Source: Leptolyngbyaceae cyanobacterium CSU_1_4 (GTDB taxonomy: Bacteria > Cyanobacteriota > Cyanobacteriia > Elainellales > Elainellaceae). From it: 59,881 bases of DNA. Each line of letters opens with the position of its first letter. Within the stretch, counting starts at the first letter, position 1. The stretch is taken from assembly GCA_012034615.1 (NCBI GenBank), contig JAAUPA010000004.1, forward strand, positions 1-59,881. Direction: 5' to 3'. Of the stretch, positions 1-59,881 are shown one piece after another. The notes beneath the pieces are model-generated. The model made no database searches, was not told where the DNA came from, and saw only the letters and a list, made by a program, of their open reading frames with translations. The position numbers were made by a program, and so were the translations under genes.

Positions 1-776
1 CGTCTGCACGACCGTGCTGGAGGTGCCTTCGGGCTATATGTCGGATCGGCTGGGGCGCAAGCTTACCCTGATGTCGGCCTGCCCTTTGCGGTGTTGCAGC
101 ACCGTTCTGCTTGTCTTGGGCGAGGGGTTCGCCCAGTTCGCGCTGGCCAACATGGTGCTGGGCGCCGGAGGGGCATTCGCGTCGGGAACAGACACCTCAC
201 TTCTTTTCGAAAGCCTCAAGGCCGAGGATCGTGCGACCGAGATCGAGGCCGCCGAACTTCGCGCTTGGCGCTTTGGTTTTGCCGCCCTGGCCCTGTCCGC
301 GCTGACGGGTGGGGTGTTTGCGCAGTACGACGAGATCCTGCCATTTCTGGCGACGGCAATCGCGGCGGCGGTACTTCTGGGCATGACCGCCCTGTTCCGT
401 GAACCCCCGCGTGCAACCCGGCGGGCCCACCGCGAGAACGTCCGCGCGCTTGGGCGCAGCTTCACCCAGCCCACGCTGATCTGGATTTTTTGCCTGGCGC
501 TGGTGATGTACGGGTTCGGCCACATCCCCCTTTGTCTTCGGCCAGCCGTTCATTCGTGAGGCACTGGCGACCGCAGGTCATGCGGCCCAGACGCCGCTTG
601 TGTCGGGTGGGGTCAGCTTTTCGATGATGGCAATCTCGGTCGCGGTGTCGCTGGTGGCGAGCCCGGTGACGGTGAGCTGGGGTGCGGGCAGCAACGCGTC
701 GACCGAGCTCGGCATCCTGTCGAACGGCGACGTCGTCACCCGCGCCGCCTCCGGCAACCGCATCAGCGTAGAATAA
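1..776 (+). CDS. MFS transporter, partial, frameshifted; foreign to the rest of the window
   Basis: A GC-rich reading frame is open from the window edge. It carries the MFS motif GYMSDRLGRK near its start, then alternating hydrophobic helices typical of a major facilitator efflux pump. At the five-C run at 526-530 the frame slips: removing one C continues it as HIPFVFGQPFIREALATAG and on to TAA at 774-776. The last ~35 residues (SNGDVVTRAASGNRISVE region) are not hydrophobic and may come from a different gene. Base composition and codon use look like a Rhodobacter-type alphaproteobacterium, and HIP1 sites are absent. I see this as contaminating or chimeric sequence, not as a cyanobacterial gene. 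The family call is sound; the organism of origin is inferred. Confidence 0.7.
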
Positions 777-44105: not shown

Positions 44106-45842
44106 TCAACAATGCTGAAATCTTTGGTGATCATCAAACAAGAAATATCGCTGTGCCATAGGCAAAACGGTTGCGGGTTCACAGGTAAGCAGTTCGCCAT
44201 CGGCCCGAACTGCGTAAGTTTCTGGATTAACTTCCATGTGTGGCATTGCGTCGTTTAATTTCATGTCTCGCTTCGAGAGTTGGCGAATATTGCCGACCGC
44301 GACGGCTGTTTTTTGAAGCTTTAATTGATCTGAAATACCATTTTTGAGAGCAGCTTGCGATACAAAGGTGAGAGAAGTGGCTGTCCTGGCTCCGCCATAG
44401 CTGGCAAACATGGGACGCATGTGAACGGGCTGGGGGGTGGGAATGCTGGCGTTGGCATCGCCCATTTGTGCCCAGGCAATCATGCCGCCTTTAATCACCA
44501 TTTCGGGCTTAACGCCAAACATTGCGGGTCGCCACAGGCACAGGTCGGCGAGTTTACCTGCTTCAATGGAGCCAACGTGGTTGGCAATGCCGTGAGTAAT
44601 GGCGGGGTTGATGGTGTATTTGGCAATGTAGCGTTTGGCGCGGTGGTTGTCGTTGCGATCGCCATCTTGCGGCAATGCCCCCCGTTGCACCTTCATTTTG
44701 TGTCCAGTTTGCCAGGTGCGAATGATCACTTCGCCAATGCGCCCCATGGCTTGCGAATCAGAAGAGATCATACTAAAGGCTCCTAAGTCGTGCAGAATAT
44801 CTTCAGCGGCGATCGTTTCTCGACGAATGCGAGATTCGGCAAATGCCACGTCTTCTGGGATGCCGCGATCGAGGTGATGGCAGACCATGAGCATATCCAG
44901 ATGTTCTTCGAGGGTGTTGACGGTGTAGGGGCGGGTGGGGTTGGTGGAGGAGGGCAAGACGTTGGCTTCGCCACACACTTTGATAATATCGGGGGCGTGT
45001 CCGCCGCCTGCGCCTTCGGTGTGGTAGGTGTGAATGACACGATTTTTGAATGCCGCGATCGTATCTTCTACAAAGCCCGATTCGTTGAGGGTGTCGGTGT
45101 GGATTGCCACTTGCACATCGTAATCATCGGCAACATTGAGGCAATTATCGATTGTCGCGGGAGTGGTGCCCCAGTCTTCATGCAGTTTCAGCCCGATCGC
45201 CCCGGCTTCTACTTGCTCGACCAAACCTTCGGGCAAGCTGCTATTGCCCTTTCCCAAAAAGCCTAAGTTGATCGGAAAGGCATCGGCGGCTTGCAGCATT
45301 CGGTACAGATTCCAAGGACCAGGAGTACAGGTGGTGGCGTTCGTTCCGGCTGCGGGTCCTGTGCCGCCACCGATTAACGTGGTCACGCCCGATGCGATCG
45401 CCACTTCGATTTGCTGCGGACAAATAAAGTGAATATGAGTATCAATGCCGCCCGCCGTCAGAATCATGCCTTCCCCGGCGATCGCCTCGGTTCCAGGACC
45501 AATAATAATATTCACATGGTCTTGAATGTAAGGATTTCCGGCTTTGCCAATGGCAAAAATTTTGCCGTCCTTAATGCCCACATCGGCTTTGACAATGCCC
45601 CACCAATCTAGAATCAGCGCATTGGTAATCACCGCATCCACTGCCCCGTTCGCATTCGTAATCGGCGATTGCCCCATCCCGTCTCGAATCACCTTGCCGC
45701 CGCCAAATTTCACCTCATCACCGTAGGTTGTGTAGTCTTGCTCCACTTCAATGATGAGCTCGGTATCGGCAAGGCGAACGCGATCGCCCACCGTCGGTCC
45801 AAAGGTTTCGGCATATGCTCGACGATCCATACGGTAGCTCAT
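44106..45842 (-). CDS. ureC: Urease subunit alpha
   Basis: 578 residues, slightly longer than typical because of a C-terminal [13 protein letters not shown]. It is the catalytic Ni-containing subunit that hydrolyses urea. Nickel ligands and active-site blocks: [14 protein letters not shown]; the carbamylated lysine in [36 protein letters not shown]-type region ([19 protein letters not shown]); and the flap Cys/His. ureA and ureB are not beside it; the upstream 700 bp hold only a repeat, so urease genes are split in this genome, as known in other cyanobacteria. Confidence 0.96.
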
Positions 45843-52386: not shown

Positions 52387-55025
52387 ATGGTTCAAGAACT
52401 TAGCTTCCAGGGTTATAGCGATCGCGTTCCGCCTCAAAACGTCGATGCCGAGGAAGCAATTTTGGGCGGTATTCTCCTCGACCCGGAGGCGATCGGTCGA
52501 GTCACAGAGCTGTTGCGTCCGGAAGCGTTTTACACGACGGCTCACCAGGAAATTTATAAGGCGGCGATCGCGCTTCAGGCTCAAGGCAGACCCACGGACT
52601 TGATGAGCATTACAAGCTGGTTGAGCGATCGGGGGATGCTGGACAAAATTGGTGGGCAGGGGCGCTTGGCGCAATTGGTCGATCGCACCATTAGCGCCGT
52701 TAATATTGACCAATACGCCCAACTGGTGACCGAAAAATATACCCGCCGCAAGCTGATTCAAGCGGGTACAGAAATTGCTCAACTGGGCTATGACACGAGC
52801 GCTTCCCTTGAGAAAATCTTGGATCAATCTGAGCAAAAGGTTTTTGGTCTGGCTCAAGATCGAGGGAATCGGGGGCTGGCTGCGACGGCAGATATTTTAA
52901 CGTCTACTTTTTCGGATATTGAAAGCCGTTCTTTGGGGTTGGTGCTGCCCGGAATTTCCTGCGGGTTTTATGACCTGGATGCGATGACTCAGGGGTTTCA
53001 GCGATCGGATTTAATTATTGCAGCGGCGCGTCCGGCAATGGGAAAAACCAGTTTCGTTTTGAACATTGCTCGAAACATTGCGGCTTTTCACAAAATCCCG
53101 ATCGCGGTTTTTAGCTTAGAAATGTCTAAGGAACAGTTGGTTTATCGCTTATTATCTAGCGAAGCCCAGGTGGAAAGCGGTCGATTGCGCGCGGGCAGAA
53201 TCAGTCAAACGGAGTGGGAACCGTTGGGTCATGCCATCAGCGTTTTGTCTCAATTGCCTTTGTTTATCGATGATACGCCTAACATTACGGTCTCAGAAAT
53301 GCGGTCTAAGGCGCGGCGGTTGCAGGCTGAAAATGGCGGGGCGTTGGGGCTGATTATGATTGATTATTTGCAGCTAATGGAAGGCGGCGGCGACAACCGG
53401 GTGCAGGAATTATCGAAAATTACGCGATCGCTGAAAGGACTTGCCCGCGAACTCAATGTGCCGATTATTGCCCTGTCTCAACTCAGCCGAGGCGTAGAAT
53501 CTCGGACTAACAAGCGCCCGATGATGTCCGACCTGCGTGAATCAGGCTGTATTAGTGGCGATAGTTCAATTACTTTGGCAGATAGCGGTGCTCAAGTGCC
53601 CATTCGTGAATTAGTTGGAAAATCAGGCTTCTCGATCTGGGCGATTAACGAAGCGACGATGCAGCTAGAAAAGGCAGTCGTCAGCCGAGCATTTGCAACT
53701 GGAACGAAACCCGTTCTTCAGCTTAGGACAGCTTTAGGGCGTAGCATTCGGGCTACTGCTAATCATAAATTTCTCACCATACACGGATGGAAACGTTTAG
53801 ATGAATTATCGGTTGGCGATCGCATTGCGTTGCCACGCCAGTTGACGAGTTCTTCAGTGCAAACTGTTAATGATGCCGAACTTGCCCTCCTGGGGCATCT
53901 CATTGGTAATGGTTGTACTTTGCCTCGTCATTCTATTCAGTACACCACTAGAGAAAAAGACTTGGCTGACATTGTTTCCTCTCTAGCTTCTCAGATCTTT
54001 GGTAGCCAAATTAGCCCACGCATTGTAGAAGAACGAGACTGGTATCAAGTTTATCTCTCTGCCAGTCAGCGTCTAGCTCCCGGAATTCAGAATCCTATTA
54101 CTAAATGGTTGACAGATCTAAATGCGTTTGGATTCAGATCTTACGAGAAAGTTGTACCCAGCCAGGTATTTGAGCAGCCTCAAGAGCGATCGCCCTCTTT
54201 TTACGTCATCTTTGGAGTACTGATGGCTCTATCAAAATGGTTGCAGGTCTTAGTCCTCGTCCAATTGCTTACTATGCTAGCCATAGCCCCCAACTTGCTT
54301 GTGATGTTCAATCTTTACTGCTAAGAGTTGGAATTAATGCTCGACTCAAAGTAAGCCCTCAATTGGGTAAAGGGCGCGACCAGCATCAAGTTATCGTTAC
54401 TGGAAAACTTGATTTAGAGAGATTTGTTCAGCTAGTGGGTGCCGTTGGTGAATATAAGCAGAAATCGCTCGAAGAAATTGCAGCGCATATTTCAACCCGA
54501 ATCGCCAACACAAATCGGGATGTGATTGATCACTACGTTTGGAGAATGTATGCAGTTCCAGCAATGCAAATTGCAGGTGTGACATCCCGCCAAATGCAAG
54601 CTCAACTAGGCATGTCATATTGTGGAACCGGAATTTATAAGCAAAACATTAGCCGTGAACGTGCGACAAGACTTGCTCAGGCAGTACGGTCTGCCGAACT
54701 ATCGTTACTGGCAAACAGCGACATTTATTGGGATCAAATTCAATCGATCGCGCTGGATGGCGTAGAGGAAGTCTTTGATTTAACGGTTCCAGGTTTACAT
54801 AACTTTGTAGCGAATAATCTTATTGTTCATAACTCCATTGAGCAAGACGCAGACCTAATTATTATGCTGTATCGGGACGAATACTATAACGAAGATACGC
54901 CCGATCGCGGCATTGCGGAAGTGATTATTACAAAACACCGGAATGGACCAGTCGGCACCGTTAAGGTTTTATTCGAGCCACAGTTTACGCGATTCCGCAA
55001 CTTAGCCTCTCCTAATCGCCCTTAA
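52387..55025 (+). CDS. dnaB: Replicative DNA helicase DnaB with in-frame intein, frameshifted in the intein
   Basis: Starts at ATG 52387 (MVQELSFQGYSDRVPPQNVDAEEAILGG). Removing the intein leaves ~450 residues, the normal DnaB length. The N-domain is followed by the RecA-like ATPase with Walker A RPAMGKTSFVL, the block IDYLQLM, and SQLSRGVESR. The intein interrupts after DLRESG and the extein resumes SIEQDADLIIMLYRDEYYNE. A single missing base near 54187 breaks the frame within the intein. Because DnaB is essential and everything else is intact, that indel is most likely an error in the sequence. DnaB unwinds DNA ahead of the replication fork. Confidence 0.93.
53548..54833 (+). other. DnaB intein (LAGLIDADG-containing, endonuclease residue altered)
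   Basis: The intein starts at Cys (TGT 53548; CISGDSSITLADSG) and ends VANNLIVHN at 54833, then Ser+1. With one base restored it is 429 codons. Splicing elements are complete: Cys1, the B-block TxxH in ATANHKFLTIHGW, penultimate His, terminal Asn and Ser+1. The central endonuclease has LLGHLIGNGCT in place of the usual GDG (Asp to Asn), and a second motif LWSTDGSIK. The same insertion site holds inteins in other cyanobacterial DnaB proteins. Splicing should be intact while DNA cleavage is probably lost. Confidence 0.9.
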
Positions 55026-59091: not shown

Positions 59092-59194
59092 TTCTTAGTG
59101 GGTGGGGAAAGGGGAGTGAATTCAAAATTCAAAATTCAAGGCTGTTCGTTTTGACTTTTGAATTGATCATTTTGAATTCGATTGTCTCTCCCTT

Positions 59195-59238
59195 GGGGCT
59201 ACGGCATTAAGAGAGGGTAGCCCCGGCGGTTTTGTTTT
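59195..59238 (+). terminator. Rho-independent terminator after the Uma2 gene
   Basis: GGGGCTAC (59195-59202) pairs perfectly with GTAGCCCC (59217-59224), followed by GGCGGTTTTGTTTT. It overlaps the stop of the convergent small gene. Confidence 0.75.
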
Positions 59239-59437
59239 ATCGGACTAGGACGCTCATGTACTTGCCGCTGGCAAAGGGGGCGGGAATGATGGGCGTGAAA
59301 TGAAGGCGGTCACTGGCAATCCGCTTAACGTAGAACTCGGTGATGAGGTGCGTTACCTGATCGCGTGTGCCGATGAGCCAGACTTGCGCTTTGTCGCCGT
59401 GCGCGATCGACAGCAGTTCGTTGAACTCTGAAGTCAT
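59237..59437 (-). CDS. Small protein of a cyanobacterial family with structured leader (member 2)
   Basis: 66 residues. It begins MTSEFNELLSIAHGDKAQVW and continues LIGTRDQVTHLITEFYVKR, RLHFTPIIPAP and KYMSVLVR. It aligns with the protein at 37390-37653 over the C-terminal ~50 residues (LIG, V-x3-I-x-E, PAP, MSVL-x-R). No known domain. Its Shine-Dalgarno GAGGA is inside a 13-bp stem of the upstream leader, so translation is likely regulated. Confidence 0.7.
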   Translation of the reverse strand: MTSEFNELLSIAHGDKAQVWLIGTRDQVTHLITEFYVKRIASDRLHFTPIIPAPFASGKYMSVLVR

Positions 59438-59647
59438 TGCTATTTTCCTCGCTAATGTTGGTGAGAAGAAAAGCTTAAGGCGTGGTATTCCTAGACCACT
59501 TGTAACATTAGCGAGGTGAAACGATAAAATCGTTGCAGCCTAGCTTTCTGGTACGTTCAGAAAGTCAGGTTAGCTGGTTAGGAGTGTTGCAAGCACTTCT
59601 AGCCAGTGTCCTCACCTTAAGCCTGTCTACTGGTATCTAAAAACCAG
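59438..59647 (-). promoter_or_regulatory. Structured 5' leader with ribosome-site-sequestering stem
   Basis: On the minus strand six consecutive hairpins are seen: ACTGGT/ACCAGT (59647-59629), TGGCTAGAAGTG/CACTCCTAACCA (59605-59575), CTTTCTG/CAGAAAG (59564-59544), AACGAT/ATCGTT (59534-59520), and a perfect 13-bp stem CCTCGCTAATGTT/AACATTAGCGAGG (59516-59504 with 59459-59447) that encloses GTGGT/ACCAC. The last stem ends in GCGAGG, overlapping the ribosome-binding site of the small gene. GCTTAAGG at 59622-59615 can also pair with CCTTAAGC at 59480-59473 inside the 13-bp stem's loop, a possible long-range or pseudoknot contact. I match it to no known riboswitch. Confidence 0.6.
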
Positions 59648-59787
59648 TGTTGATTAGCATAAGGGTAAAGACGGCACTAATACAAGGGTGTGTGAGCAAA
59701 TGTTGATGGTATAGAGGCTGGGGGGGAGACCTTGCCGGGGTGTTGCCGGGGTTTGATGGGGGGCGATCGCTGAGAGTGTGTTGGTAA
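59648..59787. other. Upstream region of the structured leader
   Basis: Holds the presumed promoter for the small gene on the minus strand. A direct repeat TTGCCGGGGT occurs twice near 59735, and there is one HIP1 octamer. No gene. Confidence 0.25.
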
Positions 59788-59881
59788 TTATGAATCATGC
59801 CCCGATCTGCCCCCTAAATCCTCCAGAATGGGAGACTTTGAAGCTATTGATTCGGAGCGGAGTTCTTTGGAGGGGGGGTGG
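59788..59881 (+). repeat. Fold-back repeat element, copy 4, cut by window edge
   Basis: ATCATGCCCCGATCTGCCCC and CTAAATCCTCCAGAATGGGA match the left half and core of copies 1 and 3 (same orientation as copy 1). The right half runs off the window. The middle (AAGCTATTGATTCGGAGCGG) differs from the AGCCAATTCTTG core seen elsewhere. Confidence 0.6.

Follow-up and report, generated by a model that had tools for sequence, protein, structure and literature searches.

The window, the whole 59,881-nt stretch of DNA analysed here, carries one copy of a ~500-base unit that is present in up to ~64 copies per genome in some cyanobacteria. The unit consists, in order, of a promoter, a leader and a 66-aa open reading frame (ORF), and many copies have a further hairpin past the stop codon. 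We consider that it is probably a dispersed, self-contained module of two RNAs and one protein. The comparison of copies supports the leader as a conserved cis-regulatory RNA that contains a pseudoknot and buries the Shine-Dalgarno, and it shows that two leader hairpins, P2 and P3, are selected on the strand opposite the leader. The multicopy, dispersed nature of the whole unit is beyond what a sequence-only reading of this single window had covered.

A dispersed unit with a sharp 3' edge

Searching at the DNA level, we recovered from the genome that contains the window 3 further near-full copies (81-85% identity; 4 near-full copies in total), together with 2 copies truncated at contig ends, 1 leader fragment, and 2 decayed copies of the ORF. 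Copies of the encoded protein family number 14 in the second genome of the window's genus, 41 in another genome, and ~64 in Elainella saxicola E1; the family is present in 23 to 26 of the 36 genomes of the taxonomic family. A profile search across 388 genomes of the class added a few genomes in one other family (f14), where genome G434 has 55 copies of a distant subfamily. No relative was found in the viral contigs or the phage and plasmid collections searched, so nothing points to an origin from a plasmid or a phage.

In copies that are >90% identical, the shared span runs from roughly -300 to +201, counted from the ATG. The 3' edge is sharp, with matches ending at the stop codon and unrelated flanks beyond, and nearly all DNA matches in genome G302 are full length, with leader and ORF together. 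There are no terminal inverted repeats in the dispersed unit and no target-site duplications at its copies (4.82 common bases observed versus 4.99 shuffled). An empty-site comparison between the two genomes of the window's genus found rearranged flanks and no clean empty site. After the stop codon in the window lies a terminator-like hairpin, GGGGCUAC...GUAGCCCC (59195..59224, minus strand), that is common to other copies of the genus; it has no T-run and was thus not scored as an intrinsic terminator.

Several other elements were seen in or near copies. In genome G323 (L097, L157, L133, L160, L161, and L162), arrays of near-palindromic short repeats (CAATGCCATTGT / CAATGCGATCGC, ~20 nt spacing) lie downstream of units, following the terminator hairpin in many copies of the genus. 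One copy in genome G302 (L169; C182, 1258-2952) is interrupted within its leader by a ~1.2 kb insertion that by eye resembles an IS630-type transposase gene. In the window, an imperfect A-T-rich inverted repeat, GAATTCAAAATTCAAAATTCAAGG...TTGAATTGATCATTTTGAATTC (59119-59179), sits between a Uma2-like gene and the unit. Positions 45401-45686 (plus strand), far from the unit, match RF02514, the cyanobacterial 5' ureB small RNA family, with 112.5 bits, and an ORF at 54237-55025 (plus strand) resembles by eye an intein end fused to the C-terminal portion of DnaB, the replicative helicase. In genome G321 (L103, L122, L153, L155, and L156), a tyrosine recombinase gene that resembles an integron integrase, either intact or fragmented, is found upstream of several copies at about -1450 to -300 and is duplicated along with them. 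The unit may be self-dispersing; the integrase-like gene adjoins copies in one genome only.

The unit encodes a conserved 66-aa protein

The 66-aa ORF (59237..59437, minus strand; ATG at 59437) is under purifying selection and is a real protein, because differences among copies are concentrated at third codon positions, with a dN/dS of 0.07-0.14. The AlphaFold model (pLDDT 81) has an N-terminal helix followed by a beta-alpha-beta-beta arrangement, and the protein is mildly basic, non-hydrophobic, and predicted to be soluble (pI 8.2, GRAVY 0.11). Sequence searches of Pfam, NCBIfam, PHROGs, PADLOC, and PDB returned no family: there was no Pfam or NCBIfam match above cut-off, and the best PADLOC profile score, E 0.024 to GajB, occurred in 2 of 32 family members, with no match for the window's protein. 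Foldseek with the AlphaFold model gave no match at E <= 0.001, and the best VIA-align score (Z 4.2) was to unrelated folds and is uninformative, with no RNA-binding fold detected. Judged by these searches, the protein appears to represent a new family.

Type I toxins are typically small hydrophobic membrane proteins, with SymE and RalR as exceptions. The 66-aa protein does not have this hydrophobicity, and we infer that it is perhaps toxin-like in nature. Its sequence varies in length among copies. Several copies (L159-L162 and L021) share a 24-base in-frame insertion (DPCGICEAAR) at the same place in mid-protein, and others have different short in-frame insertions near the N terminus. Most copies in genome G316 (L109 and L136-L145) have lost the stop codon, and their frames read into their own flanks to the next stop, so the tails differ from copy to copy.

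A conserved promoter precedes a pseudoknotted leader

Upstream of the leader we identified a -35 box, TTGTAT (59680..59685, minus strand; TTGTG[TC] in most copies), and a -10 box, TATGCT (59656..59661, minus strand). The pattern CTTGnnn-14..19-TAnnnT occurs at this position in 104 of 117 copies, and its spacer is most often 17-18 nt long. The conserved -35/-10 pair places the predicted transcript start at the base of the first hairpin, near 59649 and not downstream of 59504, in keeping with the leader as the sequence-only reading had drawn it.

All six of the ordered hairpins that this reading had described are present; two of them, P2 and P3, pair better on the plus strand (see below). P1 (59627..59649, minus strand; ACTGG...CCAGT) is the 5'-terminal hairpin. 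P4 (59520..59534, minus strand) is kept in a distant clade of copies and has an invariant AUnnUA in or beside its loop. P5 (59482..59499, minus strand; GUGGU...ACCAC) is a local hairpin whose 3' arm overlaps the end of a long-range helix, PL. Homologs keep related upstream sequence, and an alignment of 41 divergent leaders gave a covariation score of 0.225 for the whole structure versus 0.145 when shuffled (0/500), with slid partners scoring at most 0.089.

The last hairpin, P6, is a perfect 13-bp inverted repeat with its 5' arm, CCUCGCUAAUGUU, at 59504..59516 and its 3' arm, AACAUUAGCGAGG, at 59447..59459 (both minus strand). As had been read from the window, it buries the Shine-Dalgarno: GCGAGG at 59447-59452 forms the end of the 3' arm, 9 nt before the ATG. 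P6 also covaries among the 41 leaders, although one Elainella subtype has a weak P6 or has lost it. The proposed link between the far-5' GCTTAAGG and CCTTAAGC in the loop of this stem is likewise real, and turned out to be the core of the longer, 13-position helix PL, which joins GCUUAAGGUGAGG (59610..59622, minus strand) to CCACGCCUUAAGC (59473..59485, minus strand; within the P6 loop and followed by a pyrimidine tract, CUUUUCUUCU). The first 8 pairs of PL, the core, are standard in 41/41 leaders, with compensatory and G.U changes. Since PL ties the 5' part of the leader to the P6 loop, the two helices make a true pseudoknot. When PL and P6 are instead treated as alternative nested states, their energies are nearly equal, at -63.7 versus -62.5 kcal/mol in the window and with a mean difference of -3.1 across copies (sd 4.9, n = 35).

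In the distant clade, PL is formed by CCCAAAAAUUAA/UUAAUUUUUGGG, a sequence unlike that of the window, and the Shine-Dalgarno is hidden by another partner, GGGAUUUCUUCC/GGAGAAAUCCC, which again adjoins PL. A layout that is kept while its letters change is strong evidence, at the level of sequence comparison, that the plan of the leader is functional.

The earlier view that no known RNA consensus fits also held, as no Rfam 15 family reached its gathering score over the leader, either in the window or at 31 related loci. A downstream-peptide/glutamine riboswitch was rejected, there being no Rfam hit for one. Taken with the protein searches, the RNA and small-protein unit appears to belong to no Rfam, Pfam, NCBIfam, PHROG, or PADLOC family.

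P2 and P3 are selected on the opposite strand

To assign each stem to a strand, we used the fact that a stem selected as RNA tolerates G.U on that RNA, and that the complement strand then shows A.C. Scored on the sense strand, with G.U and A.C treated in the same way, G.U outnumbered A.C in PL (63:7), P4 (61:16), P1 (48:27), and P5 (18:9). P6 as a whole had no strand preference (36:34), and its Shine-Dalgarno-proximal pairs keep G.U on the minus strand. The ratio was reversed in P2 (59573..59608, plus strand; 5 G.U versus 74 A.C), where it is the antisense pairing that is preserved, and in P3 (59539..59569, plus strand; 31 versus 74), where the pairing is mainly antisense.

This bias was consistent across several comparisons. 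First, counting events on the tree by parsimony gave G.U:A.C ratios of 30:5 for PL and 2:20 for P2 (binomial p = 2e-5 and 1e-4). Second, the distant clade repeated the split, with 27:13 for PL and 47:9 for P5 versus 1:37 for P2 and 3:36 for P3. Third, the P2-P3 segment folds better as antisense in 41/41 copies (by 9.7 kcal/mol) and in 25/25 distant-clade copies (by 9.4 kcal/mol); taken singly, P2 folds better on the plus strand in 41/41 copies and P3 in 35/41. Meanwhile, P4 folds better on the sense strand in 31/41 copies, as does the P4-P5 segment in 24/25 distant-clade copies. Against dinucleotide shuffles, the z-score of the region is -3.3 for the minus strand and -6.1 for the plus strand. 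The latter value prompted us to consider the whole structure as a plus-strand one, an assignment that we rejected because in PL, P4, and the Shine-Dalgarno-proximal part of P6 it is the minus strand that retains G.U.

These statistics bear on what kind of regulator the leader is. The sequence-only reading had offered an undescribed riboswitch or riboregulator, and a cis-regulatory RNA is indeed supported. A metabolite riboswitch specifically is not, given that P2 and P3 bear the mark of opposite-strand selection. In such a riboswitch, a ligand would stabilize PL and so hide or free the Shine-Dalgarno in P6, P2 and P3 would be part of the aptamer, and their A.C oppositions would be functional non-canonical pairs. 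A pseudoknot that covaries, a Shine-Dalgarno in a second helix, invariant loop residues (AUnnUA), and the balance between PL and P6 would all suit this design. We nevertheless regard it as unlikely: the excess of A.C in sense P2 (74 to 5, and 37 to 1 in the distant clade) has no fixed non-canonical pair in common, up to 64 copies all precede one small protein rather than varied metabolic genes, and Rfam has no match. Antisense control fits the data better.

The strand reversal of P2 and P3 is also left unexplained if the 66-aa protein binds its own leader and represses its translation, as L20 or S15 do with theirs, with no antisense RNA involved. The protein is small, mildly basic, and non-hydrophobic, as such a repressor could be, and leader and ORF are kept together in nearly all copies; the failure to detect an RNA-binding fold carries little weight either way. 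On balance, autoregulation of this kind seems quite improbable.

Alternatively, the plus-strand hairpins could be single-stranded DNA structures that mobilize the unit, comparable to the ends of IS200/IS605 elements or integron attC sites, with the leader doubling as a recombination site. Folded single-stranded DNA tolerates G.T pairs, neither terminal inverted repeats nor target duplications accompany the dispersal of the unit, and several copies in one genome are preceded by an integron-integrase-like gene or fragments of it. However, the hairpins sit inside the unit, some 75-150 nt in from its 5' edge, the unit has no HUH or tyrosine recombinase of its own, the integrase is missing from most of the neighborhoods examined, and no attC core consensus was recognized by eye. 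We therefore hold a role in mobilization to be very unlikely. The mark of opposite-strand selection in P2 and P3 points, rather, to a cis-antisense RNA.

A predicted antisense RNA opposite the leader

We predict that a cis-antisense RNA of ~75 nt, comprising the two hairpins P3 and P2, is transcribed opposite the leader (59537..59610, plus strand; 3' end uncertain). Its predicted minimum free energy is -39.5 kcal/mol, versus -23.4 for the sense complement. A candidate promoter, GTAACA-17-TAAAAT (59502..59530, plus strand), has its -10 at 59525-59530, inside P4. It is the only sigma70-like site found in 59100-59881, where 0.5 such sites are expected by chance. The -10 is invariant as TAnnAT across copies, the distant clade included, and lies just upstream, on the plus strand, of P3 and P2; the same letters also fall within the real sense hairpin P4, and their invariance may reflect an RNA loop motif. 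No conserved -35 for this promoter was seen among the copies, and no clear terminator was found for the predicted RNA.

In one copy (L021), the symR model (RF01809) aligns end to end with antisense P3-P2, from the predicted antisense start to the end of P2, with 36.8 bits. This score is below the gathering score of 61, and there was no such match in the window or the distant clade. The match is a lead and not a sign of membership.

A proposed model for the unit

We suggest the following model. Transcription from the sense promoter (59656-59685) would yield an mRNA with a ~215 nt leader and the 66-aa ORF, in which PL and P6, as a pseudoknot or as two near-isoenergetic alternatives, would set the level of translation. 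The plus-strand promoter inside P4 would produce the ~75 nt RNA, a perfect complement of the central part of the leader, and this RNA might kiss and then pair with the P2/P3 region of its mRNA. Such pairing would prevent or resolve the PL pseudoknot, and we infer that translation of the small protein would be held low as a result, as antisense RNAs do for TisB, SymE, and RepZ. As the copies are similar, their antisense RNAs could also act across copies.

We tentatively propose a broader interpretation, that the unit represents a new class of high-copy, self-dispersing module of cyanobacterial chromosomes that combines a protein gene, an mRNA pseudoknot switch, and its own cis-antisense RNA, with copies regulating one another in trans, and that it acts genome-wide as a selfish element, either copy-number-controlled or toxin-antitoxin-like. 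If it is a selfish element, its protein is unusually small for such a unit. The databases searched thus lack a family of structured RNA and small protein that several cyanobacterial genomes carry in dozens of dispersed copies. Within ~200 nt it brings together a strongly covarying pseudoknot and a predicted opposite-strand RNA, in DNA where both strands are apparently under selection for folding. Confirmation would make the unit a rare example of a module under antisense control that spreads within cyanobacterial chromosomes, and would illustrate how the statistics of A.C versus G.U can assign each hairpin to its strand from genome sequence alone.

Comparison with known systems

The IS200 tnpA mRNA is opposed by an antisense RNA, art200. 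The 5' part of the tnpA RNA is structured (PMC12594629), and the unit resembles IS200 in being small and dispersed with a structured leader and an antisense RNA, here predicted, opposite that leader. Unlike IS200/IS605 elements, it has neither an HUH Y1 transposase nor TnpB, its only ORF is the 66-aa one, and no IS200 ends were found. In cyanobacteria, the MsoT1/MsoA1 pair of Microcystis was reported in 2025 as a candidate type I system (PMC12390103). It pairs a small protein with a two-hairpin cis-antisense RNA, as is predicted for the unit; however, MsoT1 is predicted to be a membrane protein of two helices, the antisense RNA there spans the end of the ORF together with the 3' UTR, and we claim no similarity between the two.

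TisB/IstR-1 (PMC4147584) likewise has a long leader in which the true ribosome-binding site is sequestered, and its antisense complementarity falls within the 5' UTR ahead of the start, as is predicted for the unit. The TisB product, though, is a membrane peptide, IstR-1 is divergently encoded, and there is no pseudoknot of the unit's kind. The repZ gene of the IncI plasmid ColIb-P9, controlled by a pseudoknot and an antisense RNA (Asano and Mizobuchi 1998, cited in PMC10286972), has a leader pseudoknot that acts as a translational switch and an antisense RNA opposite the leader. There the product is a plasmid replication initiator and a leader peptide is involved, whereas the unit is chromosomal and dispersed and has a 66-aa product. 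SymE/SymR (RF01809; PMC4147584) differs in that SymR overlaps the start codon, whereas the antisense RNA predicted in the window lies in mid-leader, and in that SymE has 113 aa, compared with a 66-aa protein of beta-alpha-beta-beta type present in up to 64 copies per genome. What the two share is a small, non-hydrophobic protein and a two-hairpin cis-antisense RNA of ~75 nt opposite the 5' region of the mRNA, which in the unit is predicted.
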